From Pigoraptor vietnamica (Eukaryota > Opisthokonta > Filasterea), in assembly GCA_943704525.1 (NCBI GenBank), contig CALSCQ010002076.1, forward strand, positions 1 through 25,263: 25,263 nt of DNA, in the 5' to 3' direction. How positions within the stretch are numbered: position 1 is the first letter of the stretch; each line of letters opens with the position of its first letter. Both the position numbers and the translations under genes were made by a program. The notes beneath the pieces are model-generated. The model saw only the letters and a list, made by a program, of their open reading frames with translations. It was not told the DNA's origin and made no database searches. Shown one piece after another: positions 3,266 through 24,800 of this stretch.

Positions 3266-3862
3266 TCAAGCCTCCGACTCGTTCGGGCCCTCAGCACCGC
3301 CCTCCTCAGGTTCGAGGTTGTGCAGCGGCGGCATCTGGAGCATGGCCGGCTGAGGCTGGGCGCCGGGCGGCGCGTCGACCGGAAGAGCAGGGCCAACGCG
3401 GACGCTGCTGGGCGGAAGGAGACCGAGAGCTGCGAGGGACGGCAGGCGGCGCGGGGCCGTCGAAGCCTGTCCGTTCGGAGGCGGAATCGGGAGGCGCTGA
3501 AGCGGGGGAAGGACCATCGCGGGCGGCGCCGGCTGGATCGCCTCGCTCGGGAGGTGACGGCGCTTGGCCTGCCAGTTGACCACGTCGGCGCGAGGGCCGC
3601 GCTGCTGAGCCTTGGGCGACGTCGAGCCCTGTCCGAGTGCAATGGGCGCGACAATCGGGGCCTGGCGGGGCAGCGGCGGCGCCGCGATCTGCTGGATGGC
3701 CGGCTGCATGGGCGAGGCGCCAATGTCCGGCATGTTGAGGAACGGATCCGGGTTGTTGCGCATGGCGACCATCGCGGGCGGGCGCGTCCACGGCTGGCTG
3801 GCGTCCTTCGGGAAGTCCGTCGGCATCGGCATGATCTTCTTGGTCGGCTTCGGGCGGAACCG
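3266..3862 (-). other. Proline-rich cytoplasmic tail of the giant protein
   Basis: About 198 residues, rich in Pro, Ala and Gln, with APPLPRQAP, VLPPLQRLPIPPP and LPVDAPPGAQPQP, and an acidic end (EPEEGGAEGPNESEA). There is one DPF (in NNPDPFLNM), a motif that can bind the AP-2 appendage. No PPxY, NPxY or kinase-like segment is seen. It is probably disordered and may bind SH3 or similar domains; that is inference. Confidence 0.75.
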
Positions 3863-6800
3863 CAGGTACACGAGCACCGCGACCGTCACAATCACGACAA
3901 AGAGCGAGGCCGGCAGCGCGTAGTAGAGGACAGGAACAGACTCCGGGTTGCCAAAGTTGCCCGAGATCGGCGACGTCGTTTCGGAGCTCGCCAGCGAAGA
4001 GTTGTCCGGGTTCTTGAGCAGGCCGTTGATGAACGTGGCCGTCAGGACGCCCGCACGCGGCGGCAGGGACCCAATCACGTCGAGGATAGTGATCTTCAGC
4101 GTGTTGCTCGCGGTCCACTCGCCGACGTAGCTGTTGCCGAGCGCCTGCGAGAACCGAATCAGCTGGTCGATGTTGGCCTTCGTCGCCACCGGCGGCTTGT
4201 TGGTCGGAATGTCAAACACGAACGTAATGACGTCGCCGGGGCTGTAGTAGTCATCGCCCTGGTCGGGGTCCGAAGCGTAGAACGCGATGACCTTCGGCGC
4301 AGGCGAACGCGTAACGTCCGACACGGGCGACGTCGTCGTGATGGTACGAGCGCGCGGGATGAAGTTCGTCAGCGCACTCGCCGAGAGGCCGGCGAGGTAT
4401 GCCTTCGCGGCGCGCGTCGTCGCGGTTGAGTTGCTCGACGTCACGTAGAACACCATCGTCGCGTATCCGTTGTCCTTGGTCCGCACGAGCACAATGTTCG
4501 CTGTCGTCGTGTTGAGCGTCGTCGAGAGGTTCGAGAGGACCTCGCGCTCGATCGGCAGAGAATACTGCCCGTACTGCACGTTGAGGTCAAGCTGGATATA
4601 GTCGGAAAGCGCGACGTCGTTCGAGAGGTCCGCCGACGTCCCGTTGCCTGTGCCGGCAAAGTTATTCAGGAGCCCGCTCTGGATGGCTGACGGGTTGATG
4701 GTGAGCGCCGTGACGACGTCCGCAGAGCTTCCGAGGGTCTGGCCGGTCGAGTCGAGGATGATGATCTCGAGCTCGTTCGCGGCAAGAGAGTCGCCCGTGC
4801 TGTTCGTGTCACGCACGTACAGACGACCGACGAGGTTTGCCCCGTACTTGGACGTGTCCAGCGGCGGGCACGGCGTGCCATCCGAGCTCTTGAAGCGCGC
4901 GACAAAGTTCGCGCCGAGAGTCTCGGGCTTGTCGAACAGCTTCGCGACCATCTCCTTGGGAATGACGTCGCAATGCTTGAAGTTGACAGGACCGTTAAAG
5001 GCGACAGTGACCACCGACCCGCGCGGAAGGGCCTTGCCAGTGTCCGACGAGTCTGCCTGCTCCTTGTTGATGACGAAGTCCGTAATCTTCGGCAGCGCCG
5101 TTCCCCAGTTGCCAGTCCACTGCGGCGAGAGGGCCTCCGAGGCGCGCGACGTCAGCGCCGCGTTGCGCAGGTTGCCAGACGCGCGGACCTGCAGGCGAAC
5201 GGTAGCGTCGAGCAGCGCGAGAGCGTTGGGGATCGGATGAATGCCCTGCGTGATCGCGATCACAAGCGTGGCGCCGGCGTCGGACCACGTGCCCACATAG
5301 TCCGCGCTCGCGAGAATGCCCGGCATCACGAACACGCGGTCAATGTCGCGCTTCGTGTCAACAAACGGCTGGCTCGTCGGCTCGTTGAACTTCACCGTGA
5401 TCGTGTCGCCGATGCCAAACTCCGAGTCGCGGTTGTTGGGATCCGCCGCAATTACGCTCGCAATGTAAGGTCCGAGGATTTCAACCGACACCTCAATCTT
5501 GGCCGACGCGCAGAGCACCGGCATGCCGAGGTCACAGATCGTGTACGAGATCGTTGCAAGGCCGATGAAGCCCGACGCAGGCGCCGTGTACATAATGGCA
5601 GAACGCACAGCGCCCGAGGCGGCGTCCGTCACGTTGACAATGGTGAGCGTGCCGGGCGGCAAGGGGTCGTCGACCCGCGTGCTCATGTAGTCAATGTTGT
5701 TGTCCACGTCCGTGGCCTTCGGCAGGACGTCGAACGTCTGGCTGGCGTTCGCGAGAAGTCTGATGCCGGTGAGCGAAGAGGCGAGCGGCGCGTCGTTGAC
5801 AGAGTTGACCGTCATGAAGATCTTGGCCTGCGCGCACGCCCCGTTCGAGTCGCACACGCGGTAGCTGAAGGAGACCGAGCCCCACCAGTTGAGCGCGGGC
5901 GTGAAGCGGATGATGCCGTTGAGAGAGTTGAGAGACAACGTCGCGTTCGGCAGCGACCGCTCGACGAGCGAGATGGTCATCTTGCGCTTGTCGCGGTTGT
6001 CGTCAATGTCGTTGACGTAATCCTTGGCAAAGATGAGGTACTCGACGTCCTCGTCCGTCGACACCGTAATGTCCTCCGGAACGGGTGGGTAGTTGACGAA
6101 CGTTACGTTGATGCCCACCTTCGCCAGTGCGCACGCGCCCTCAAGGTCGCAGATGCGGTACGTCACAGAGTCCAGGCCGTAGTAGTACTGATCCGGAACG
6201 TAGAGCAGCACACCGGTCGCAGGGTCGATCGAAACGACACCGTAAGTCGTCGACTTGAAGACAGACAGAAGATCCCCCGTGAGCGTGTCCTCCACGTCGC
6301 TGACGAGCGGAAGCAGCGGCACCGTGATGTTCGTGTCGCGCTTGAGCGAGACGTTCAGTGCGCGGGCAACCGGCGGGTCGTTGATGGGATCGACGACCAG
6401 CGTAAACGCCGACGACACGCACCCGCTCGAGCTGCAACCCTCGTAACTGACCACCTCGCGGCCATTGAAGTTGTGCGCCGGGACGTAGTGAACGATGCCC
6501 GTGGTTTTGTCGAACGTGAGGACACCGTGAGCCGTCGAGTTGAGCAGGTTGACGTTGGCTGGCGTCATCACATCGTCCGGATCGTACACGTGGGTCATCA
6601 TGTCAAAGTCGACGAACGTGTCCTCGTCGAGGCGAACGCTGAACGCAGACGGCCGCGGGAGGTCATCCACCGACGTGATTGTGACCGAAATCGTCGCCTG
6701 CGCGCACGCCGAGTCCGCGTCGCACACCTTGTAAACGAACGAGTCCGAGCCAAAGTAATCGGCGCCGGGCGTGTACGTGGCAACCATCGTGACAATGTTG

Positions 6801-9800
6801 ATCGTCGCAGTGCCGTTCTTGGGCTGCGTCACAATCGACAGCAACGTGCCATCGAGAATGGTCTCGACGTCGGCGACGAGGCCGCCGAAGTCCACCGTCA
6901 CCGGCGTATCCTCCAGGGTCGTCAGGCTGGCGCTTTGCGCCGTCGGCACGTCGTTCACAGAGGCAATGCTCAGAGTCACAGTCGCCGTCGCGCAGAGCAC
7001 CGGCGTGCCAAGGTCGCACACAGTGTACTGGAGCGAGTCGGGCCCGAAGTAGTTGGCCGCCGATGCGTAGCGAACCGTTCCGTTCGTCGCAAGCGACGCC
7101 GAGCCGTGCGTGGGTGCCTTCGAGATTGTGATCTGCGCGCCCGTGAGCGTGTCCTCCTTGTCAAACACAAGCGGAAGAAGGTGGAACCAGACAGGCGTGT
7201 CCTCGCTCGTCGCCACGCTCAGGTCGGCGGCGGTCGGCCCGTCGTTGACCGTGTTGACCGTAACGTCGATCGGCAGCGTGAGGCACGAGAACAGATCGCA
7301 GACAGTCACAACGAACGAGTCCGCGCCGAAATAGTCGGCCGTAGGCGTGTACGTGACAACGCCGCCCGCAACAGTGGCCGCGCCATGCGAGGCCGCCGTC
7401 GTGACCGTGACGTTCGCCGTGTCGAGCACGTTGTCGTAGTCGAACACGTTGGCGAAGACAGGAATGTCGAACGACGTGTCCTCGTCGAGCGTGATGTGGT
7501 CCCACTGCCACGTGTTCTTCTTCATCGGCGGGTCGTTGACGGCCACAAGCGAGAGGATGGACGTGACGACGTTGGACGCCGCCATGCTCAGATCCTTCAC
7601 AACGAGCGTAATGACGCGCGCCGTGACGTTGGGGTTGTGGTCGACAATCGTGTAGCGAATGTTCTGCAACACAGTCTCCCACTCCGCAATAGTCGCGACA
7701 CCCGTCAAAGTGAGCGTGCCCGTCGCGTTGTTTCCGCTAATCTTGTTCGAGATGCCCGCGGGAACGTACAGGCTCTCCTGGCCGGCGCTCAGGATAGTCG
7801 TCAGAGTGACCGTTGCCGTCGCCATCTTCGTGTCGTCCGTGTCCGTGATGCGCACCTCGGGGAACACGAGGGCAGACGAGCGCTCGACGACAAACGTGTT
7901 GTAGGTGGTGGCCGTCGTCGCATCCGCAAAGAGCTTGGGCGCGTCGTTGACCAGCACAATCGCGATCGTCGAGTAGAGGCGAATGCTGACGGCAGAGCCG
8001 TCCGAAACGTCGACCGAGAGGACACGGTTCGCGGGGTTCGGCTCGTCGGCAGTGTTCAGGTACCGGACGGTGCGCAGCACCGTCTCGAAGTCGGACGCGG
8101 GCGCCGAGCCAGTGATCGTGAGAGTGCCGCTGGCGTACGAAGCCGTCAGCGACGTTCCAGACGCGTCGGCCGAGAGGCTCTCGAGGGCGCCGTCCGGCGG
8201 CGACGAGACGAACGTCACCGTCACCGAGGCGAGCAGAGGCGAGTCCACGTCCACAATGGTGGCCGCGGCATCGACAATCGCCACCGCCGCGCCTTCCTCC
8301 GTGAACGAGGTCGAGTAGTTGCGGCCCGACGGCGTGCCGTTCAGGTCCACGATCGGCGCGTCGTTCACAGCCTGGAACGTGATGATGACCTCGGCGTAGT
8401 CGCTCGTCGCAGCGCCGTCGTTGACCGCAATGCGCACGTCGCGGGGCGAAGTGTTCGGGTTGCCCGGCTTCGCGTTAGCATTCGAGTAAGTCACTGTCTT
8501 CAGCACCTTCACAAAGTTGGCGACAGAGTCGGGTCCAGTGAGCGTGAGGCGGCCGTTGGCGTAAGCCTTCGTGATCGACGTGCCCGTGACCACAGCGTCA
8601 AGCACCTCCGCGGCGCCGTCCGGCATCGCCTGAAGTTCGGCGTAAGCGCTGGCCATCTGTGCGTTGTCCGAGTCATCGATGGCGAGGTTGTTCGTCGCGA
8701 GGGTGAGAACTCCGCCCTCCACGTAAGTGAGCGCAAGGTCGCGCGACACGGACGTGCTGTTGAGCGTGAGCACCGGCACGTCGTTGACGTACTGGATGGT
8801 CACGCTGCAGTAGGCAGTGACGGAGTGGAACGTCCCGTCGTAGACGACGAACGACACCGTGCGCTGGCCCGGGGTCGCGGGCTCGTCGGCAACGTTCTCG
8901 TAGACGACCAGCTTGAGCGCCGCTTCGTAATCGGCGACCGTCGCCGCACCCGAGAGTGTCAGCGTCCACGACGCACCAGTGTAGCTCGACGTAATGCCCG
9001 TGGGAAGTGTCCCAGCGACGACAAGACGCTCGTTCGCGCCGTCCTTGGCGTTCGTAATCTTCACGACTGCACTCTGCTGCATGAAGTTGCCAGTGTCCGC
9101 GTCGCGGAGAGAGAGATCCGTACCGAGCACCACCGAGGGGCCCTCCTCGACGAAAGTCACAGAGGCGTTCACGTTGCTGCCGTTGAGGCGCAAGACCGGC
9201 GCGTTGTCGTTCAGCAGCGTGAGCGCGACCGTCCGCGTCAGCGCGGCCGTCGAGAACTTGCCGTCAAACACCTGGAAGACGACGTCGCGGCTGCCCGGCT
9301 CCGGTTCCGCGGCGTCGTTGATGTACTGCGCCGACCGCAGGACCTTCTGGTAGTTCGAGTACGTGTCCGCGCCAATCAGCGAGAGAACGCGAGTCGTGGC
9401 GTCGTACGACGCGGCGATCGCCGTCCCGCTCACGTCGGCAAGGATGCGCTGCGACGCAGCGTCGAGGGAGCTGGTCACAATCGAAATGTTCGCCGAAGCC
9501 ATCAGGAAAGTGCCCTCCGGGTCCGTGTCCGTCAGCGTCAGGCCCGAGTTCGCAAGCGCGACAGCGGGGCCGTTCTCGATGTACGTCACGGACAGCACAC
9601 CGAGCGTGAGCACCGGCGCGTAGGCGTTGATCTGCGTGACCTTGAGGGACGCAGTGACGACAGACTGGTCGGCATCGTCGCTGACCGTGAACGTGAGGTT
9701 GCGCACGCCGGCCGAGGGGACAACCATCGTCGTCTTGTACTGGAACGACTTGACGAGGTTGACAAAGTCAGAAGTCGTCGTGCTCGCCGCAGGCACAAAG

Positions 9801-12800
9801 CGGTACCACACGTTGCTGCCCGTAGCGCCCTCGCTGGCCGAGAAGAGCGCGCCGGCATCCGTCCACGTGAGCGCCTCGCTCGGGTAGTCGACGGCGTGCG
9901 CAATGTCGACGCGGAGCCACGACATGGTCGAGTTGTCCTCATCGTAGATGCTCGTCGCGCTGACATTCACAAGGGCAAGAGGTGGGCTCGTCTCAATGTA
10001 CTCGAGCGTAGCCTCCGATGCCGCGCCGTAGAGCGTGAGGATGGGCGGGTCGTTCACCGACACAACCGTGATCGTTGCATTGGCGCGCGAGAGGCAGAAC
10101 GTGCCCGCGGGCGCCAACCGCACCACGTAGTTCACGCCGTACATTCCGTCGGCGAGCGAGCCGTCCGTCTGGTCCCACGGGGCGTATGTGAGGGTGGCCG
10201 TGCCATGGAAGTTGTGGTTAGGCAGGAAGCGCACCGACGCCGTCTCCGCGAGAAGCGTCGCGCGGCGGTCCGTCGGATTGACGGGGTAAATGGCGTTGTT
10301 CTCGAGAACGTTGCCAATGAACTTGCGCCACGTCGGGTCGGCGACCGTCTTGTACTGCCACTCGCCGTTGGAGACGTCCACGTCGAGGACAGCCATGCCA
10401 ATCTGTGTGGTTCCGTCCACGTCGCGTGCCGAAGGTGCGAGCAGGTCAAAGACCGTGATGCCCAGGTTGCTGGCGACGGGCGTGTCCTCGAGGATGGTCG
10501 GGACGATCGCCGCAACGCCGGTCAGAACAGGGGGATCGTTGACAGGCGTCACGATGATCGTGAGGGTGACGACGTCGTCGCTCACGGGCGCGTCGCTCGG
10601 GATGACGAGGGCGTTGCCGCTCATGTCCGGCGCACGCGTCTGGTCCCAGAGGCGGACCTGCAGCGTGGCCTGCCCGTTGAAGTCGAGGTTCGGAACGAAG
10701 CGAAGAGACGTCACCGTCACATTTGCCACCGTCACAGGCGTCGACGGCGACACAGCCGCAAGGTTGGCCCACGCGCCTCCAGAGACCGACGTCTGCCACG
10801 TGCCGTTCGCCACATCCGCGTCGATGACGACGACGCCAAACGTGGTTCCAATATCGACGTCCGACATGCGTCCCGTAAGGAGCGTAGAGATGCGGTTGCC
10901 GCCGTTGTCGGCATCCAGCACGTCCTCAATGATGCTCGGGAGAGAGACGACACCGGGCGCGAGGACCGGCTTGTCGTTGACGCTGGTGACCGTGATCATC
11001 ACAGCACGCGTCTCGTTGCTGAAAGCACCCGCGACGCGGAACATCGCATTGACGTTCGCCTGGCCGCTCAACGAACCGTCCGTCTCGTCCCACGCGGCAA
11101 ACGTGAACTGCGCAGTGCCCCAGTAGTTCGCCGCAGGGACAAAGCGAATAAACACCGTCGGCGCGACGCTGAGGACCGTCGCCGTGGCGCGCGACGTAGC
11201 GGCGGACACGGTGCTCCACGTCGAGCCAGAGTCCGTCGAGGTCTGCCAGTTGCCGTTGCTGCTGTCGACCGAGACGATGGCGATGCCAAAGACCGCGTCA
11301 TAGTCCTCGTCCGTGAGGAGGCCGGCCGCAAGCACGTCCGTCGCAATGCCCGGGTTCGAAGCCGACGGCACGTCCTCGATGATGTCCGCCATCGTCAGCG
11401 TGGCGCCCGTGGCGAGCACCGGCGAGTCATTGACGGAAATCACGGTGATGTTGACAGTCGCCGACGTTGCGCTGAACGCGTCAATGATCGAGGCAAAGCC
11501 GGAGGCATCGAACGACAACGAGCCGCTCGCGCCAGCTGTGCGATCCCACGCGCGAGCCTCCAGCATCGCAGAGCCGTGGAAGTTGCGCGCGGGCGCGAAG
11601 CGAATACGGTCGTTGGCACCGTTCGCGAGGAGAACGGCGCTCGCATCGGCAACATTGAGGGGAACGTCGACCCAGTCCGCGCCGTCAGCAGAGATCTGCC
11701 AGCGGCCGTTCGTTTGTTCGGCAGCCACAATCGCGATGCCCTTGAGAGGGTTTGCGTCAACGTCCGAAACGAAGGCATCAAACAGCGTCGAGACGCGCTC
11801 GCCACGGTTGTTCTCCGTGGGCACGTCCTCGTCGATGTCCGGCATGCGCAGCAAATTGACGTTAAGCACAGGCGAGTCGTTCACCGCCGTAACAGAGATG
11901 ACAGCCCGCGAAACGTTGCTGCGCGCACCAGCCATATCGGCCACGTACACGACGACGTTGCGGTTCCGCTCGGTGGGCGCCTGCGACGGGTTGACATACT
12001 GAATCGACCGGAGCATGCTCACGTAGTCGGCGATCGCAGCCGGGCCCGTAATCTCGAGAACGCGTGCACCCGCAACCGTCGACGTCGACACGTTCACGCC
12101 GCCGACCGCCGCGACGATGAGGTCCTCGCCGTTGTCAGCGGGGTCCGTCAGCGTGGCGCGAAGCAACGACATTTGCGAATCATCCGTATCGGTAATGACG
12201 TGGGCCGCGAAGAGCGAAACGGGGCCAGCATCCTCAATAAACGCGGCGCTGGCGTCAGCCAACGTGTTGTTGCCGTCCAGAAGCTTCGGCGAGTCGTTCG
12301 TGAGCGTGATCGACACGTTCGAGAACCGGCCAAGGGACACGGCACCGCCAAGGTCCGTCACCGTCACGAGCACCTCGCGGGCGACCGGGTTCGGCTCGTC
12401 CTTGAGGTTGTTGTACGTCAGCGTACGCAGCGTCTCCTCGAACACGGCAGTCGCCGCGGGGCCGTCGATCCGGAGCTCACCAGTGGCCGCATTGTACGAC
12501 ACAGTCACAGATGCATTGAACGCAACCGCCGCAAGCATTTCGTCCGCACCATCGGGGATGGGCGAGAGAATGGCCTGCGCGAATGCCATGACCGCACTGT
12601 CGATGTCGACCAGCGACAGATCCGCCTGCACGATCGAAACGGCTCCGCGCTCCTCCGTAAAGACGGCCGACGTGTTGACGCCCGGCTGAGCGCCGCTGAG
12701 GTCGAGGATGGGCGGGTCGTTGACGTCCGTGAACGCAATGTGCGCGTACACATCGGCGCTCGGACCGAGCCCGTCGAACACGACGAACGAGACGTTGCGA

Positions 12801-15800
12801 GGAATGTCAATAGGGTTGCCCGGACGCTCGTTGCTGTTGTGGTACGTCGCAGTGGAGAGCACGGCGATGTAGTCCGCAAGCGGGGCCGTGCCCGTGATCG
12901 TGAGCACGTAGTTGCTGTACGACTTCGAAAGCGACGTCGAGCCGAGGTTAACGTCGAGCACTTCGTTGATGCCGTCGGGGTGAGGCGTCAGGCGAAGGAC
13001 CGCCGACGTCAGCGTCGTGTTGTCGTCGTCCGTCACGAGCAGAAGGTCGGTGGCGAGCCGCAGCGGTTGCTGGCCCTCCGTGTAGGTGACATACATGTCC
13101 GGCACAGGCGACGACGAGTTGAGCGTGACCACCGGGAGATCGTTGACGAAAATGATCTTCGCGTCAGCGGCAACGAGCGTGCTGAAGTGAAGACCGTCGT
13201 TGAGGACGAACGTCACCGTGCGCAGGCCCTCGGGCAGCGGCTCGTCGGCCACATTGTGGTACTCAATCATACCAAACGCGGTCGCATAGTCGGCAACAGG
13301 AGCGCTACCAACAAGAGTAAGCGTGTACGAGGCCGCGTCATACGTGGCGTTGATGCCGGCGGGGAGCGTTCCGGACACCACCAGGCTCTCGGCAGCACCG
13401 TCCTTGCCGTCGGCAATCGCCACGACGGCGCCAACCATGTCGAAGTTGCCGCTGTCGGCGTCCGTGGCGACCACGCTGCGGCTCACGCGCACGGCCGCAC
13501 CCTCCTCGATGAAGATGACGCTGAAGTTGGCCGACGCACCATCCAGAGTGACCACTGGCGTCTTGTCGTTGACAAGCGTGACCGAGACCGAGCGCTGCTC
13601 GACCGACGACGAGAAATCGCCGTCGTTCACGACAAACGAGATGACCCGCGTCGTTCCAACGGGCTCGTCCTCGAGAATCACGTACGTCACCGAGCGCAAC
13701 ACCCGCTCGTAGTTGGCGACAGTGTCCGAGCCCGACAGAGACAGGGTGCGGCTCGTGACGTTGTAGCTCTTGGCAATCGACGTCGATGAAACGTTCGCGT
13801 CGAGACGCTCCGTTGCACTGTTGACCGTCGCCGTCACAATCTTCACCTCGGCACCGACCATGTAGAACATGGTGTTCAGGTCGGCGTCAGTGAGGGTGAG
13901 GCTGCTGTCCGTCACCGCAAGCGGCGCAGAGTCCTCGACGAAGACGGGGGAGAGCGAGCCAAGCGAGAGAACAGGGGCGTTGTCGTTGATGAGCTCAATG
14001 TTGACCGTAATGTTCGACAGAACGCTGTTGTCCGCGTAGTCGTTGGCCACCACCTCGACCGTGCGCGGCGTCGGGTTCGGCTCGACCGCGGTGTTCACAT
14101 ACTTGGCAGACGCAAGAATGTCACGGAACTCCGCCACCGTAACGCTGCTGGCCGCCGCAATGACGAGGGTGTAGTCGCTGCCGACACGCGAGGGCGTCAG
14201 AGTGACGTTGTACCCGTACGTGTTGACCGCAATCGTCTCGTCCGCGTCCTGGCAGCCGTGAATGACGAACGTCAGGCTCGCGAGGTTGTCGTCGTCCACG
14301 TCGATGAGGAAGGGGTGCGCAGCGAGCATGGCACCGGCCGTCTCCTCGCGGAACGTAACCGAGGGCGACGCCGTAGTGTTGTCAAAGTGAATAACGGGCG
14401 GATCGTTCACGGCAACCACCGACACGACCAAAATCGCCGCGTTGCTCGTAAGGCCGGCCGCATCCGTGACAGTCACCGTGACCGTCCTGTCGCCAGGGGT
14501 GGGGTCCTCGCTCGTGTGCTTGTACGTGAGCGATTTGATGATGCCCTCGTACACGGCGCGCGACGCAGACCCGCCGAGCTCGAGCGTGGTCCCGTCAAAC
14601 GCCGCCGTCACGCCAGTCACGTTCGACCACGAAAGCACCTCGACCGCAGACCCATCCACGTGTCCAGCCAGCACGATGTGCGCAGAGACCGTCTTGAACA
14701 AGCCATCGTCCGACAGCCACGTCGAGGGCGCGAGTGTCGTGGGCACATCGTCCTCGACGTAGACCGCCAGCGCGTCGTGGCCCCCGGTCGTCGTATCGCC
14801 ATCCAGGACGGGCGCGTTGTGCATCTTGATCGTCGTGTTGACCGTGTTGCTCCAGAATTGGCCGTCCGTCACACTCGTCCTCAGGAGACGGTCGGTAATG
14901 TCCGGAACGGCGGCCACGTCGATGTAGTACGTGAAGTCGAGAATCTTGGAAAGCTGCGCCGGCGACACAAAGCCCGTCACGTTGAGCGTTCCCGCGGAAT
15001 ACGACCAGTCAAAGTCGGGGCGGCTCACAGCCAGGAGGCGGCAGCCGACGTTCTCCAGGGGCACCACTCCAGTGTGATTGACCTCGAGCGACCACGTGCC
15101 ATCGATGCGCAGACCGTTCAGCGACGACAGGTCGCCCAGCGGGCGGAAGCTGCCGGGCATGCCGCGCGCGCACGCGCCCGCAAGGGACGACGACGCCCCG
15201 CTCGCGTCAAACACCGTCGCAAACATGTCAAGAACATCGCACGTCGTCGTCGTCGTCTGGTCAAACAGGTCGACCCGCGCTCCCGACGGGTGCACGAGCG
15301 TCACGCGCGTGTCAGCGATGGGACCCGCAATCTGCAACTCGACATCGAGGTCCAGAATGATGCTCGGCTCGACGACGGTGAAGGGAATCGAGAGCAGACC
15401 TGCGACCTGCACCCAGCCCTTCTGGTACGTGAGCGCAGGGACGGCGAACCGGTCATCGAGCGTGACGATGAGGCGCCAGCTCCGGAGAACGCCGTTGCGG
15501 AACGGCTTGTAAGCGTCCGTGACGGTGAGCGTCCAATCGCCGGCAAAGTCGAGGCCCTGGAAGCTCGAGAGTGCCTCGCTCGGGCGCAGGCTCGAGCGGA
15601 GATTGCTGAAGCACAGCCTGTCGACCGACTGAGACGCCAAGTCGTCCAGCACGAGGCCGCGAATGTCCTTGCCGTTGCACTCGCCCGCTGCGCCTCCAAG
15701 GGACAGGCGAGAGAAGAGCTTGACCTTGGTTCCGGCGTGCTCCAGCGTCACGATCAAGTCGCCAATGTAGCCGTGGTCGATGTTGAGCTCGACCTGCACG

Positions 15801-18800
15801 CTGCGCACCGCCCCGGCACCGCTCGCCGCCAGCACGTCCGTGACGCAGTAGCTCGTAGACGACCCGGGGCAGTCCACCCGGAGGTCCTTGTCAACGGAAC
15901 CTGAGGACAGGAGAGCCGTGTTGGACACGACCTGCGTCGGGTAGGCAACGACGATCGCCTCGTTCGCGCCGTCGGGAACCGCGTCAAACATGGCCTTGAG
16001 GCCGACGAGGTTGCTGTCAACATCAATCGCCATCGCCTGCCCGCCTGCGATGTGGATCCGCGGGCCGCCCTGCACAAAGATGACGCTGACGCTCGTGTCG
16101 CCCGTGCGGTTGAGCGCGAGCGTCGGCGCGTCGTTACGAGGCGCAATCACGACCGTGGCGAAGGCCTCGGGCCCGTAGAGGTTGCCGTCGTACATGCGGA
16201 CCGAGATCAGCCGCGGTGGCTGGCTGTCGACCGACGCCGTGCTCTTATAATGGACCGTCTGCAGAGCGCCCTGGTACGTCGCAATGGACGCCTCGCCCGA
16301 GATGGTGAGGCGACCAGACACGTCGTAGTCCCAGTCGAGCGCGGGGAAGGCGGTAAGGTCCGCAAAGAGGCTCTCGTCAAGATTGTCGAGCTCATCGACA
16401 ATGCGGACGACCGCCTCGGTCATCGTCGTGTTGTCCATGTCCGTGATCGTGACGTTCGCGAAAGCGAGCACCACGCCGGTAGAACGCTCGCCGTACGTGA
16501 CGTTGACATCGCGCATTCCGAGACCGCCGAGGAACACGAAAGGAAGGTCGTCCACGAGGTGCGTGGAGATGAAGACCGTGGCGACGTTCGTCTCAAGCAC
16601 AGGGCTCGTGAAGCCCGCGTCCGTGACGACAACCGTCACCTCGCGAGCTGGCAGGCGCGTCGGGTTGTGCGACGTGCTCACGTACCGAGCCAAGCGGAGG
16701 ACATTCCGATAAACCGAGATGGTGGCCGAACCGCTGACCGTGATCGTGTGTGTCGCGTTGCCCACGACCGCGAGACCGTAATCCAGAGTCGAGTCATCGA
16801 CGTAGAGGTACTCGTCCTGATCAAGAGCGTTCGTCAGGTTCAGGACAAGCTTGGACATGCGCAAATCATCGTCGTCCGTGATCGCGAGGCTGCGAGCGCA
16901 CAGAGGCGCGCCGACAGACTGCTCCACGAACGTGACGTAGAAGTCGGCTCCAGCGATCGCCGGATCGAGGTCGAGAACCGGCGCATCGTTGATCCAGATG
17001 ATGTTGATCGTCGAGTTGATGGTCACCGCGGCGTCAAGACCATCCGAGGCATCGACGCCAATGTCACGCGCGTCGTTCTTGGGCTCGTCGAGCGTGTTGA
17101 TGTAGCGAACCGTCCGCAGCACTTGCTGGTACATGGCCGGCGTGTCGACTCCCACAAGCGAGAGCGTCGCGTTCAAAGTCGAGTACCACGCCGTGATGGC
17201 CGTGCCCGAAGTGTCCGCCGACAGCGACTCGCCACTGCCGTCCACTGCGTTGCGAATGCGCACGGACGCCGAAACGATCGTCTCGCTGTCCACGTCGATA
17301 ATCGTCATGGCGGGGAACGCAAAGACAGCAGGTCCCTCCTCCGTAAATGATGTGACGTACACGCGTCCGGCCGCAGGCCCGTTGAGGTCGATGATCGGCG
17401 CGTCGTTCACAGCTTCGAAGGTCATGTCCGTGTAGACCGTCTCGCAAGGGTCGACGCCGTCGTAAACGACAAACGCAATCCGCCGCGGCGCCGTGTTCGG
17501 GTTGCCGGGCCGCGCGTTGAGATCCACGTACGTGGCAGTGCGCAGAACAGCAATGAAGTCGGAGACCGATGCCGGGCCAACAAGCGTCAGATTGCCGCCA
17601 GTGTGCACCTTGATAATCGGCGTGCCGCTCACGTCCACGTCAAGGACCTCGTCGGCACCATCCGGCGACATGACCATCGTAAGCGTGGCACTCACGAGCG
17701 TCGAGTTGTCGTCGTCCTCAATGTGCAGCGACGGCGACGCGATGGAAAGGGGCGTCAGGCTCTCGATGTAATCGACAAGGTAGTCCGCGTTGCCAGTGCC
17801 GTTGACGCTCAGGCGCGGCGGGTCGTTCACGTAGATGATCTGGACGACGGTGCTCATCGGTGACGAGCACTGCACGCCGTCACAGACGACAATCTCGATA
17901 GCCCTGAAGCCGGGCGCCGAGCCGGGCTCATCCGCAGTGTTCGCGTACACGACCGAACGGATCACATCCTCGTAGTCGCTAAGGAGGCCGGAACCGTGGA
18001 GCGAAAGCGTGTGCGTTCCAAAGTCGAACGCATCCACCGCAACGTTCGCGTTGCCGGTCGCGCTGATCGACTCGAGCGCGCCGTCCTGAGCGTCCACGAT
18101 TGTGATCGTGGCGCTCACAAGAGTGCCGCCATCGCTATCGGCGTCCGTCAGCGTCACAGACGGGCTCGGATTCCAGACCTGAATCGAGGGACCTTCCTCC
18201 ACGAACGTGACGGCCGAGGCAGGCGTGATAGTGACAACCGGCGTCTGGTCGTTGCGCAGAGTGACGTCGATGTCCTTCGTCGCCGTGCCTGTGAAGTCAC
18301 CGTCCGAGACAGTGAATGTCACCGTGCGGCTCAGATCCACCGGCTCTTCGATGTTGACGCGCCACGTCACCGTGCGCAGGAGAGCCTGATAAGAAGCGAC
18401 GTCGCAAGCGCCACTCAGCGTAAGCGTGCGAGACGAGACATCGTACGACTTCGTCACCGAGCACGGCAACGTCCCGGCGTCAAGAACATCCCCGGCCACG
18501 TCGGTCGAACCGCCCGACACTACAACCGTGGCAGAGCTCATGAGATAGTCGCCGTTGAAGTCGGCGTCCGTCAGCGTGATCGCAGAATCAACCGCAATCG
18601 CCACTGCGTCCTCGATCCAAGTCGTAGCACCAGTCGACGACGTCAGCACGGGCGCATTGTCGTTGACGGTGTGGACATTGATCGTCAACGTCGCAGTGGA
18701 GCTCGAGAGGAGGCTGTCCGACACAACGAACGAAACCACACGCGCCCCACGCGTCGGCTCGGCGGCATCGTTGACGTAGTGGAGCGACGAGAAGACTGCT

Positions 18801-21800
18801 TCGTAGTCATCGACCAATGCAAGGCCAGAGAATGTGAGCGTCTGCACTCCGCCTGTCGTCGAGTCCGTCAAGGTGAGGCCGAGGTCGCTGACCATCGTCG
18901 TGTTCACCGTCACGCGCTCAGCATCCACAATGCCGTTAACGGTGATGGTCGCTGCGCTGAGCGTGATGTTGTCAACGTCGACGACATCGACCGTGATGTA
19001 GTCGAACACCCAAACGTCCTGAGAGAGATTGTCCGACGTCTCAAGGAAGTCAAGCGTCGCCGTGTCGACGGTCACGACAGGCGCGTCATTCACAGGGCGG
19101 ACGACGATAGCGAGGCCGCGCGTCCCAAGGCTAAAGGCGGCGTCGGGTGCCGCGACAGTCGTGTCCACCACATCGCCGACGGCGTCCGACGTCTGATCCC
19201 AGCCCTTGAAGGTGCCCGTCGCCGTGCCAAAGAAGTCGTGGTTTGGAACAAAGCGGATGAGGGCGTCGACGTCGAGGAGAACAGCCGCCGTAGCCGATAC
19301 CGTGGGGAATGTCTGCCACGACGAGCCGCTGTCGGTCGAATACTGCCAGCTCCCGTGCGACGTCACAAGGCCCGTCACGGCGATGCCCTGAACGGCGCCG
19401 TCGTCCACATCAGCCATCACACCGTCCACAAGGTCCGACACAGACGTGCCGCTGCTGTCCGACGTGTCCTCCTCGATCGAGTCGCAGAACGAAGTTCCGG
19501 CAGAAACCACAGGACGATCGTTCACAGGCGTAACCGTGATGTCCAACGACGACTGGGCAGTCAGAGCACCGCCACTTCCCGTGTTGCCATCATCCGAGAC
19601 CTCAATGTCGATGGTCGCGTCGCCGTAGAAGTCCTGCGGGGGGTCGTACTCGAGCGCGCCGAGAAGCGCGTTCACGTCGGCAAGCGGTACGTTTATAACG
19701 ACGGGCGACGTCTGGAAAGTCGCGCCGGCATCGAGCGAGACGCGACCGTGATCAATGGTGATCGTGACCGTGATGGGTCCATTGGCCTCCTCGGCGTCGA
19801 CATCGGCGACAAGGAACTCGGTGTAGAGCGTCAGAATCGTGTCCTCGTCAACCGTCGCCGTGGAGGCCGCGCGGACAATCGAGGGGGCGTCGTTCACCGC
19901 CGTCACGACAACAAAACCAACAAGGTCCGCCGCGCTGTACGCGTCCGTGATGCTGACATCGGTCGCGTCCGCATTCGAGCCGTCCACCACCGAGTTCGTC
20001 TGATCCCAGCCACGCATCGTCACCGTCGCCTGCCCGTTCCAGTCGGCCGTAGGAGTGAACCGCAGCCAGTTGCCGGCCGCAGACGACAGGTGGCTAGCGT
20101 TCGACTGCGAGGCGGACGAGATCGTCGTCCACGAGTTGCCGCCATCCGTAGTGAAAGCCCAAACGCCGTTCGTGCTATCCACCGCGATCACAGCAACAGC
20201 AGTAACCGACGGTCCATCCACGTCAGTGAACTTGCCGCTGATGAACGACGAGATGGCAACAACCGCAGGGCCGTCTTCCGCAACCGTCGCAAGCGTCGCG
20301 GTCGCCGAGGCGCGCACAGGCGAGTCATTGACCGACACGAGCGTGATCGTGGTCGTGATCGTGTTGCCCGCGTCACCATACTCGTCCTGCACGACTGCAG
20401 TGACAGTCCGCTGGAGAGCCGGGTCGAAGGCGTCGTTCGTGTTCACGTACTCGAGGGACTGGATGAGGCTCACGTAGTCGGCGATGGCCGCGACTCCCGT
20501 GCACGAGACCGTCGTCGTGCCCGTGCACGTGATGCCGGACACGGACCCAACAGACAGCGACTCGAGGCTTCCAGCGTTGTGCAACGTAAACGTCGCACTC
20601 TGCATGTTGACGTCGTCGGAGTCCTCGATCGCAACGGCGCTCGCGTTGAAGACCGCAGTGTCCGCGTCGTTCTCCGTGAACGTGAAGCTCTGGCCTGCGT
20701 TCGACAGAAGGGGCGCGTCGTTGACCAGCGTGATCGTCACGATAGCGAACGCCGGAGCGCTGTTCAGGTAGTTGTCGTTAACGACGATTCGAACGTAACG
20801 ATCGTCGGGACTCGGCTCATCGGCGGTGTTGATGTACGAGAGCGTCTCGAGAACCGTCGCGTAGTCGTCAAACGAATAGTTGCCCGAAAGCGACAACACG
20901 CCGGTGCCAGCATTGTAGGACGCCGTGATGCTCGTTCCCGTGACGTCGACCGAGAGGCTCTCAAGGACACCGTCAAGAGGGTTGACAAGCGTGACGACCG
21001 CGTTCGCGAAGTTGCCCGAGTCAATGTCCGTGCACGTGAGCTGCGTCTGAATGAGGACGACTGCAGGGCCTTCCTCGACAAACGCCACCGTCGTGTTGAG
21101 CGCCGCGCCGTCCAGACGGACGACCGGGGGATCATTCACGGGCAAGAACGTGATCTGCACCTCCACATTGTCGCTGGAGAGCTCCTCGGCGCCGTGGTCA
21201 TCCGTAACATACAGCGTCACCGTCCGCAGAGCCAGCGTGGGAAGGCCAGAGATTTGGTTCTCGTACGTCAGCGAGCGAAGGACTGCGACGTAATCAGCGA
21301 CAGTCGCCGACCCAGAGAGGACCAGGTCAAGATGGTTCCCGCTGCGCACCACGCTCTTCGTGATGCCGGCCACGACGTCAACGTCGAGGAGCTCATTCGT
21401 GCCGTCGGGAACGGGCGAGAGGCGCACCTGCGCCGACGACATGTGCGTATCGTCGCTGTCGGTGATGACAAGGTTCGGGGCGAGAGAAAGCTCTCCGGTC
21501 GCCTCAATGTAGACCGTCTGCGCAAACTGCGCCGCGCCATCGAGAGTCAGAGCCGGCTCATCGTTCACGTACTGGATCGTCAGCAGCGAGTACACCGCCT
21601 CCGACGTAAACACGCCGTCCATCACGTGGAACGAGATGAGCCGAGACCCGCCAAGGGGCTCGTCAGCGTCGTTCCGGTACTTGACCGTCTTGAGAACGGC
21701 CGCGTAAGCCGCAACGCTCGCCGAGCCCGACAGCTGCAGCGTGTACGTGCCCGCATTGTACGTCGCCGTGATCGACCCGGTCCCAGTCGCCGAGAGCGCC

Positions 21801-24800
21801 TCGTCCGCACCGTCCGCGCCATCCACGATGACCACCTCGGCACCGACCATCGGCATCGCTCCGCTGTCCGCGTCCGTCAGAGTAAGCGCGTTCGTCGTGA
21901 GCGACAGCAGCGCGCCAGAGTCCTCGATGTACGTCACGCTCGTGTTGACAGCGCCTCCGTTGAGGAGGAGGACCGGCACCTTGTCGTTCACAAGCTGCAC
22001 GGTGACCGTGATATTCTCGATAGTCGTGGAAAACAGCCCGTCGAAGACGCTGAACGACGCCTCGCGGTCGCCGCCCGTCGGCTCGTCCGCCGTGTTCTGG
22101 TACTTGACCGTCCGCAGAATCGTCTGGTAGTTCGCCGCGCTCGTGGCTCCCTGAATGCTCAGCACACCCGACGAATACGTTGCCGTCACAGTGCCCGACA
22201 ACCCGCCCGGAATGGTCACCGACAGGACCTCACTCGAACCGTCGGGAATCGTCGCAAGCGTCACCGTCGCGCTCGCCATCGGGAAGCTCGGCGTGTAGTC
22301 CACATCAGTCACCGTCAACCCGCCGTCGACGACGACACTCGCGCCGTCTTCAACGTACGTGGCCAGCGCGGACGAAAGGACAAGCACAGGCGCGTGCAGG
22401 TTCTCCACCGTCACCGTAAACGTCGCAGTCGACGTGCTGCTGTCCAGCGCACCGTCGTTCACCTGCACCGTCACTGTGCGCGCACCGGGCTTCGGGAGCG
22501 CATTCGTGTTGCGGAACTTGAGCGAAGCAAATACGGCCTGGTACGTCGCAACCGTCGCCGACCCGCTGAACACGACCTGCATCGTCGCGGTGCTGGCGCC
22601 GGTAACGGTATCCGTCAGGCCGTTGGCGTCATACTCAAGCGTATCGTCGTCAAAGCCGCCGTCAACGTCCGCGCGCCCGTCGAGAATGACGGTCATGCTC
22701 ACAAGATCCGCACTGTCGATGTCAAAGAGCTGCGACGTTCCAGCGTCCGCGACGTCGACAGCGGCAGAACCTTGCGGGAAGTTGAGGCTACGAGCCGAGC
22801 TGGCCACCGAGATCACCGGGGCATCGTTCACAGGCGTGATGTCGACTGTGATCACGAGCACGTCGGTGCTATACGGATCGCGATAGTCGTCCACATGAAC
22901 GTCGGCGGTCTGACCAGCCGTACCAGCCGTCTCGTCCCACAGCAGCGCCGACAGCGACGAATCGCCGTCGTAATCAGCGACAGGAACGAAGCGGATGTCG
23001 GCGGTGCTCGGGACCAGGAGCGCAGCAGCCGCGCTGACCGACGCGATGTCCGTCCACGGATCACCGCCGGACAGGCGATACTGCCACTGGCCATTCGCGT
23101 TGTCTACCGTTGTGACAGCAAGCCCAAACTGCGTCGTGCCGTCCACGTCCGAACCAGCTCCGTTGAGCAGCGCCGGCAGAGAGTCGCCTGCGATCGTACC
23201 CGCGGTGTCGTCCTCCGTCACTGCCGTCAACGCAAGCGAGTTGACGAGCAGCACCGGCGAGTCATTAACGGCGGTGATCGTTAGCGACGCGACAGCGCTC
23301 GCCGAGCTAAACGGAGACGTGGCATCAAGAACCACCGGGTCAACGATGGTGCCAGCGAGAGCGGCACCCGTCTGATCCCACGCGACAAACGTCAGGGATA
23401 CGTCGCCATAGAGATTTGAAGCCGTGTTGAACCGAACAGCGCTCACACCGTCGTCCGCAAGAAGGAAGGCCGACGTCGACGAGAGGTTCGACGGCATATC
23501 GTACCACGTGGAACCGTTGATGGTGTACTCCCACACGCCCAGCGACGATCCGAGGTCGTAATCGATGATGCCCACGCCGAACACCGCGTCAGCGTCGTCG
23601 TCCGTGACGCCAGCGCCGAGCACGAGATCGGAAATCGAGAACGAAGTCAGCAGCCCGTCATCCTCGTTCACAGGTCCAATCGAGAACGTGGTCGTTTGCA
23701 CGACAGGCTCGTCATTCACGCTGTTCACCGCAATATCGAACTCGTACTCGTCAGCGCTAAATGCCGTCGACGCATCGAGACTCCGGGCATCCTTGTTCGT
23801 GTGGCCGCTCGTCGAACCGTCCGTCGTGTCCCACGCCGCAACCTTGAACCACGCAGCTCCGTGGAAGTTCGCCACGGGCGTGAAGCGCACCCGCACCGTC
23901 GACACAGCGCGCAAAACGACCGCCGAAGTCCGAGCCACCGTCAACGGCACCTGCGTCCACGCAGTCCCGCTGTTCGTGCTGAACTCCCACCGGCCGTTCG
24001 CCTGGTCCGCGTCAACAATCGCGAATCCAGTCACCGCATCCCAGTCGTCATCCGTAATCAGACCCGCAACAAGCGTTGCCCCATCAACACCCGCGTTGCT
24101 TCCAGACGCAACGTCCTCGTCAATCGCAGGCAAGGCAGAGCTGCCGGTCGCGATCACGGGCCGGTCGTTCACGGAGATCACAGTCACGGTCGCCGTCGCC
24201 GTCGCCGTGCTGAACGCGTCTGTGATGTCGGACTTGCCCGTGATGTCCGCCGTTTCATTGCTCGCGCCGCTCGTCTGGTCCCACGCCACAAACGAGAACG
24301 TCGCGGTCGACCAGAAGTTCAGCGCAGGCTCGAACCGCACGCGCGTCGTATTCGACTCGCCGCTCAGAAGCAGCGCGCTCGACGTCGTCACAGACGGAAC
24401 CGCGTACCACGTCGTGTTATCAACCGTGTACGACCACACGCCGTTCGTGTCGTCCACCGCGTAAATCGCGATGCCCTTGACTGCGCCAGCGTCAACGTCC
24501 GTCACCGTCCGACCAAGCAGCGACCAAATCGAAATACCCTCGTTCATCGCAGCCGGAATGTCCTCGTTGACCGACGCCAGCGTGAACGCCGCCTGCGTCA
24601 AAACGGGCGAGTCGTTGACGGCGACAACGTCCACGTAGACGCTGCGCGCAACGCTCACAAGCCGTCCGTTGTCGCGAACGGTGATGGTAATCACACGCTG
24701 CACGACAGTGTTCGGCGCCTGCGCCAACGTGCGATACGTGACATTCTTCGCGAGAACGAGAAGGTCGGCGACAGGAAGAGGCCCGAGGAGCAACAGACGC

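Follow-up and report, generated by a model that had tools for sequence, protein, structure and literature searches.

In the titin A-band, domains at equal positions of the super-repeats are the most alike (a pattern pronounced in the central C-zone), the super-repeats were duplicated recursively, and conservation is uneven by position (PMC10665226). Giant surface proteins are also described in bacteria: Giant1–5 of Apilactobacillus kunkeei are 3,000–8,000 amino acids (aa) long and are reshaped via short intragenic recombination (PMC12863079). Here we describe the giant modular protein encoded on the minus strand of a 25263-base window from Pigoraptor vietnamica, which is the entire contig CALSCQ010002076.1 (C850). 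Its modules recur in ordered groups of six (hexads, positions A0–A5). Copying of multi-module segments enlarged the gene, rather than recent tandem addition of single modules, and this history is well supported. Taken as a whole, we consider it likely that segmental duplication gave rise to a surface protein that is anchored in the membrane and has a titin-like super-repeat rod, the functional part of this description being suggested by sequence features.

Like the titin A-band, the protein appears to be a rod of beta-sandwich modules arranged in ordered multi-domain super-repeats (PMC10665226). Unlike titin, a muscle protein of immunoglobulin (Ig) and fibronectin type III (FnIII) domains, it is apparently extracellular and membrane-anchored, uses other modules, has variable spacers and is microbial. 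Titin/connectin itself was rejected as an identification: Pfam scans of the frames on the window and on a second contig, C583, gave no Ig, FnIII or kinase family. With Giant1–5 it would share the character of a very large surface protein reshaped by short intragenic recombination; the Giant proteins differ in being bacterial, in the beta-solenoid heads of Giant1–4, and in the reported exchange, which is among strains and genera where here it would be among the units of a single gene (PMC12863079).

Module organisation of the frame

The minus-strand frame is open at its 5' end at the contig edge and runs from position 25261 to a stop codon at 3266–3268, giving 7331 residues without interruption. 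Cutting the window protein at its VND-P linkers defined modules m00–m46. The long modules are of two types, A (~139 aa) and B (~150 aa). The features are as follows:

3266–25261, minus strand: the 7331-codon frame with its stop, open at the 5' end (open-frame reading)
24617–25261, minus strand: m00, the second part of an edge-cut module, and m01, A5-like (linker cutting)
22829–24616, minus strand: B block m02–m05, the B1–B4 of unit 1 in the original prediction (linker cutting, scores)
20330–22828, minus strand: A hexad H5, m06–m11, also of predicted unit 1 (linker cutting, scores)
19091–20329, minus strand: block m12–m14, two B modules and the divergent m13 (linker cutting)
16553–19090, minus strand: A hexad H6, m15–m20 (linker cutting, scores)
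14408–16552, minus strand: block m21–m23, including m22 with two P_proprotein matches (Pfam, linker cutting)
11882–14407, minus strand: A hexad H7, m24–m29 (linker cutting, scores)
10055–11881, minus strand: B block m30–m33, the B1–B4 of predicted unit 2 (linker cutting, scores)
7538–10054, minus strand: A hexad H8, m34–m39, also of predicted unit 2 (linker cutting, scores)
5495–7537, minus strand: seven shorter modules m40–m46 of 95–101 aa, with Big_9 (seven stretches) and Cadherin_4/5 (Pfam)
3920–5494, minus strand: pre-membrane region, no Pfam family above cut-off (Pfam)
3857–3919, minus strand: hydrophobic stretch, probable membrane span (judged by eye, no predictor)
3269–3856, minus strand: proline-rich C-terminal tail, probably cytoplasmic (judged by eye)

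The outer part of the protein would be a rod of ~140-residue Ig/cadherin-like modules in which the hexads are separated by other blocks. Spacing between hexads is not constant: the blocks contain 1, 2, 3, 6, 3, 3 and 4 modules, the 6 being counted over the contig gap. Module m22 (14819–16135) is 439 aa long and contains two proprotein-convertase P-domain matches (50 bits) inside an apparently split A-like module.

Position-specific similarity of the modules

Looking at the window alone, none of the 720 possible orders scores better than the collinear one in any of the six block pairs. The 36 position-matched pairs have a mean score of 204, against 119 for the 180 unmatched cross-block pairs, and none of 20000 shuffles within blocks attains the observed sum. 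The same holds for the eight hexads of both contigs (four of them on C583, whose modules are n00–n31): the mean score is 210 for the 168 matched pairs, 126 for the 840 unmatched pairs across hexads and 130 for the 120 pairs inside a hexad, with 0 of 5000 shuffles attaining the observed sum. Of the 28 hexad pairs, 26 have the collinear order at the top of the 720 and the remaining two have it in second place. In cross-hexad comparisons, 40 of the 48 A modules are most similar to a module at the same position; the eight misses (n06, n08, n19, n25, m24, m29, m34 and m39) are mostly A0 or A5, and none is to an adjacent module.

A test that uses no block boundaries gave a similar picture. The best partner of a module is followed by the best partner of the next module 11 times in the 38 window modules considered, which exclude m00 and m22 (2000 shuffled orders: mean 0.92, maximum 6), and 15 times in 69 modules of both contigs, which exclude m00, n31, m22 and m40–m46 (2000 shuffled orders: mean 0.93, none as high). 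In a tree of modules with 52 rows, the six position groups show eight label changes, where 5 is the minimum and shuffling gives a mean of 32, and clades unite seven of the eight A1 modules (support 99/98), all eight A2 (85/88) and all eight A3 (83/91). There are 21 residues which mark single positions (shuffled mean 0.5, maximum 4 in 500). Mean identity is 42–45% at the core positions A1–A4 and 33–35% at the end positions A0 and A5. As in titin, equal positions are closer than neighbours, clearly for A1–A4 and weakly for A0 and A5, and the unit recurs eight times in constant internal order, with one extra module (n03) in H1. A1–A4 are clearly distinct positions and the two end positions less so.

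The original prediction had expected growth by long ordered units over one-module steps, and the strong collinearity, the position-grouped tree and the lack of adjacent best partners bear it out. Modules clustering with their immediate neighbours would have spoken for the opposite; the best partner is adjacent in 0 of 38 window modules and in 0 of 69 on both contigs, where ~2 are expected from shuffled order, so that this absence alone is only suggestive. On this absence and the position-grouped tree together, tandem growth by single modules was rejected as the chief mode.

Units of duplication

Concerning the units themselves, the prediction was that one ten-module unit (B1–B4 plus A0–A5) had been duplicated once, giving 20324–24610 and 7532–11875. 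The lengths of the two units (1429 and 1448 aa) are right, and the coordinates are off by six bases (m02–m11, 20330–24616; m30–m39, 7538–11881). All eight motifs quoted were found, once each, in the expected modules: one each in m02 and m30, two each in m03 and m31, and one each in m05 and m33. Four B modules precede the hexad in both units. The prediction would be supported if each module paired best with its counterpart; within the window this is so for B1 (m02–m30) and B2 (m03–m31), which are mutual best matches, and not for the other eight pairs. A1, A2 and A4 rank first seen from unit 1 and second from unit 2, and the remaining pairs rank lower: A0 (7, 3), A3 (2, 5), A5 (2, 4), B3 (9, 9) and B4 (9, 7). 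When ranked across both contigs, m03–m31 is the sole mutual best match among the ten.

A single duplication is not supported. The A0–A5 block is present four times in the window (m06–11, m15–20, m24–29 and m34–39) and eight times overall, and the blocks between hexads differ in make-up. The claimed pairing of B3 and B4 fails: the corresponding B order is third of 24, and the top order has the two swapped. Within the window the mutual best match of m05 is m32, not m33, so the B modules are collinear with one unmatched module per side and not four for four. Nor are the two units the closest pair, since the hexad of unit 1 (H5) has H3 on C583 as its sister, not H8. Summed scores within the window place H8 nearer to H7 (1421) than to H5 (1218), yet the nearest hexad to H5 within the window is H8. 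On this evidence a single duplication of ten modules is very unlikely. With half of the hexads on another contig, scanning a single window gives too low a count of such units.

Relationships and age of the copies

In the tree of concatenated hexads, H3 and H5 group with support of 90/94 on A1–A4 and 98/98 on A0–A4. Forcing H5 with H8, as a single duplication would have it, is rejected on A0–A4 (9.05 log-likelihood units worse; approximately unbiased test, p-AU 0.038), though not on A1–A4 (p-AU 0.22). A larger segment is also recognisable: n14–n30 aligns in order with m02–m20, except for m04 and m05, and eight of the 17 pairs are mutual best matches in the whole set. The blocks n22–n24 and m12–m14, which lie between hexads, also match in order. 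The larger in-order match shows that copying was layered, involving the hexad as well as longer runs that include their blocks. The duplicated segments are the hexad and a block + hexad + block + hexad segment (n14–n30, m02–m20).

Four-fold silent sites are 0.26–0.58 identical in 24 of 25 tested pairs, where chance, by residue, is 0.34–0.51; nearly all tested copies are therefore old. The persistence of position signatures despite silent sites near chance would also suit a different explanation, in which selection (convergence or shared constraint at certain positions), over ordinary tandem growth, made the modules alike. The likeness spans whole modules and consecutive runs, however, the n22–n24 and m12–m14 blocks keep their order, and adjacent best partners are absent; we regard selection as the least probable of the alternatives, slightly behind the single duplication. 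Segmental duplication is thus the reading followed below.

A stretch probably rewritten by later gene conversion

The one exception among the 25 pairs is n21–m11, in which four-fold sites are 0.86 identical. The feature concerned is:

20225–20524, minus strand: core of a stretch of high identity to C583, the end of m11 and the first part of m12 (DNA identity in bins)

Five 20-codon bins of the n21–m11 alignment (~300 bases) show 92–98% DNA identity, and in the next bin, downstream, the value drops from 0.98 to 0.58. As this abrupt edge falls inside module m12, gene conversion explains the stretch better than module copying, and the ~300 bases are a probable later conversion between two units of the gene. 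Since identity changes gradually on the upstream side and exceeds the average in the flanks as well, more than one event may have taken place. In the proposed history, this rewriting of one short stretch would follow the growth by duplication, most simply via gene conversion between two units.

The probable front of the gene on a second contig

The genome searches covered an assembly of 32.5 Mb in 1395 contigs. A single A-module query gave 49 matches, all of them on C850 or C583. On C583 a frame of 4537 residues lies at the contig end; its beginning is close to a hydrophobic leader (M at 13576), and its other end is cut by the contig edge. The cut modules (last of C583, first of C850) are complementary as one module with ~8 residues missing (14 with the best of 48 templates, range 5–15). 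No second N-terminus was found in the genome. The C-terminal region, including the pre-membrane part at 3920–5494, has six other genome matches, all partial (at most 142 of 742 residues, 36–38% identity). Most likely C583 and C850 are one gene of ~11,900 aa, with C583 as its front, as judged from these sequence comparisons. The window frame would then probably be the C-terminal part of a giant type I membrane protein, with a hydrophobic N-terminus on C583 and the hydrophobic stretch and tail in the window, both assigned by eye on unjoined contigs.

Alternatively, the two contigs may carry two genes of one family, each cut by a gap, and the eight hexads would be four plus four. The lack of a joining sequence fits this, and n14–n24 is strikingly like m02–m14, as is equally expected of paralogues. 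Against it, there are one N-terminus and one full C-terminus, the 49 A matches include no third contig, and the cut modules are complementary. We consider two paralogues unlikely, although less so than the two explanations above, and continue with a single gene.

Elsewhere in the genome, frames on C33:1–6000 and C630:1–8000 have B-type modules and VND linkers, with no A-type match. Long frames with B-type matches are found on C222, C1265, C33 and C630; these were examined for linkers only.

Fold and putative function

The structural model of the A module (mean predicted local distance difference test score, pLDDT, 96.4) is an all-beta sandwich with one short helix. Compared with cadherins, it has template modelling (TM) scores of 0.26–0.44 among the 50 matches listed. 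A search for a sequence relative among solved structures with the A profile returned two galectin-type chains with expect (E) values of 0.5 and 0.72, which were judged to be chance matches. Eight columns are conserved in at least 43 of the 48 A modules; four of them are acidic and are kept in 45 to 48 of the 48.

In cadherin-like modules conserved acidic residues often hold calcium, and each domain is roughly 4–4.5 nm long. At this length per domain, ~78 modules would form a rod of some 300–350 nm. The sequence features suggest an adhesin or filament at the cell surface, anchored in the membrane and stiffened by calcium, in which A1–A4, as the better conserved core, may carry recurring binding faces, and the blocks between hexads may act as spacers or special inserts (e.g. 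the P domains). More tentatively, the hexad could be a ruler: a titin-like super-repeat evolved independently in the extracellular rod of a eukaryotic microbe, from a module type that is also bacterial, in which the A1–A4 binding faces would recur stepwise over several hundred nm and exchange between units would keep chosen junctions alike. If true, clear super-repeat growth, which is best known from titin, would be present in a microbe's probable cell-surface protein. The analysis offers a map of the conserved positions of the six, of the junction being rewritten and of possible sites for a repeated partner. Searches of open-licence papers listed no comparable protist protein.

Several observations weigh against parts of this reading. 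The hexad frames were picked post hoc from the similarities, with n03 in H1 treated as an additional module, which means that the block-based tests were not blind. The module tree leaves A0, A4 and A5 mixed and A1 incomplete, and A0 and A5 are weakly position-specific, with the best cross-hexad match at the same position in four and five of eight modules, respectively. The larger segment contains poor pairs: n25–m15 (ranks 31 and 32), n27–m17 (12 and 10) and n28–m18 (7 and 3). No read joins C583 to C850, and the gap may be longer and contain whole modules. The leader and the membrane span are assigned by eye only. The A model resembles solved structures weakly, with no match at E ≤ 0.001 (the best is a B4GALNT1 domain, E 1.1e-3, TM 0.52), and the B model (pLDDT 85.1) has no match with E ≤ 0.001 among solved structures. 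Surface location, calcium binding and adhesion are predictions from the protein sequence.

Related proteins

Bacteria contain giant cadherin-like / tandem-95 / DUF4347 proteins with A-type modules. A tblastn search with five to six A modules (m34–m38) matched 15 plasmid records, three of which cover 80% or more of the query at a single locus, at 26–38% identity to the query. In Variovorax paradoxus both the module and the VND-P linker text resemble those of the protein described here. The bacterial control is thin: one of the three plasmid loci (Variovorax) could be cut by the linker pattern, yielding 10 usable modules, in which five of the ten best partners are adjacent and the rest are 3 to 7 away. 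A pattern query with a single module against a collection of bacterial and archaeal genomes gave 162 matches, none of them confirmed, so that close relatives are absent for that query only.

The calsyntenin family CLSTN_C (PF19699) exceeds its curated cut-off in each of the four pieces of the window frame and the two of the C583 frame, and its best window stretches fall on A modules. Unlike in calsyntenin, these best stretches cover 52–82 of 354 profile positions, and Pfam reported no other calsyntenin part; the calsyntenin label was rejected on these partial matches. Window pieces 1 and 4 match Cadherin_4 and Cadherin_5 above cut-off, Cadherin_3 is below, and the A model is weakly like an extracellular cadherin (EC) domain. 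A plain cadherin label was not adopted, the protein being at most a candidate member of the cadherin superfamily.

Neighbouring features

The strand opposite the gene (plus) has open frames at 4973–13789 (2938 aa) and 17996–23284 (1762 aa); these are probably shadows of the gene's codon use at 60–65% guanine plus cytosine. A search for the chlorophyll-binding family Chloroa_b-bind gave no match, and a photosynthetic host was rejected. A 551-aa frame on the minus strand at 859–2514 matches the outer-dynein-arm coiled coil of ODAD1 with 38.6 bits (cut-off 27), and because of this match next door the host is probably a flagellated eukaryote. A TG-rich simple repeat lies between the two genes, at 2643–2692.

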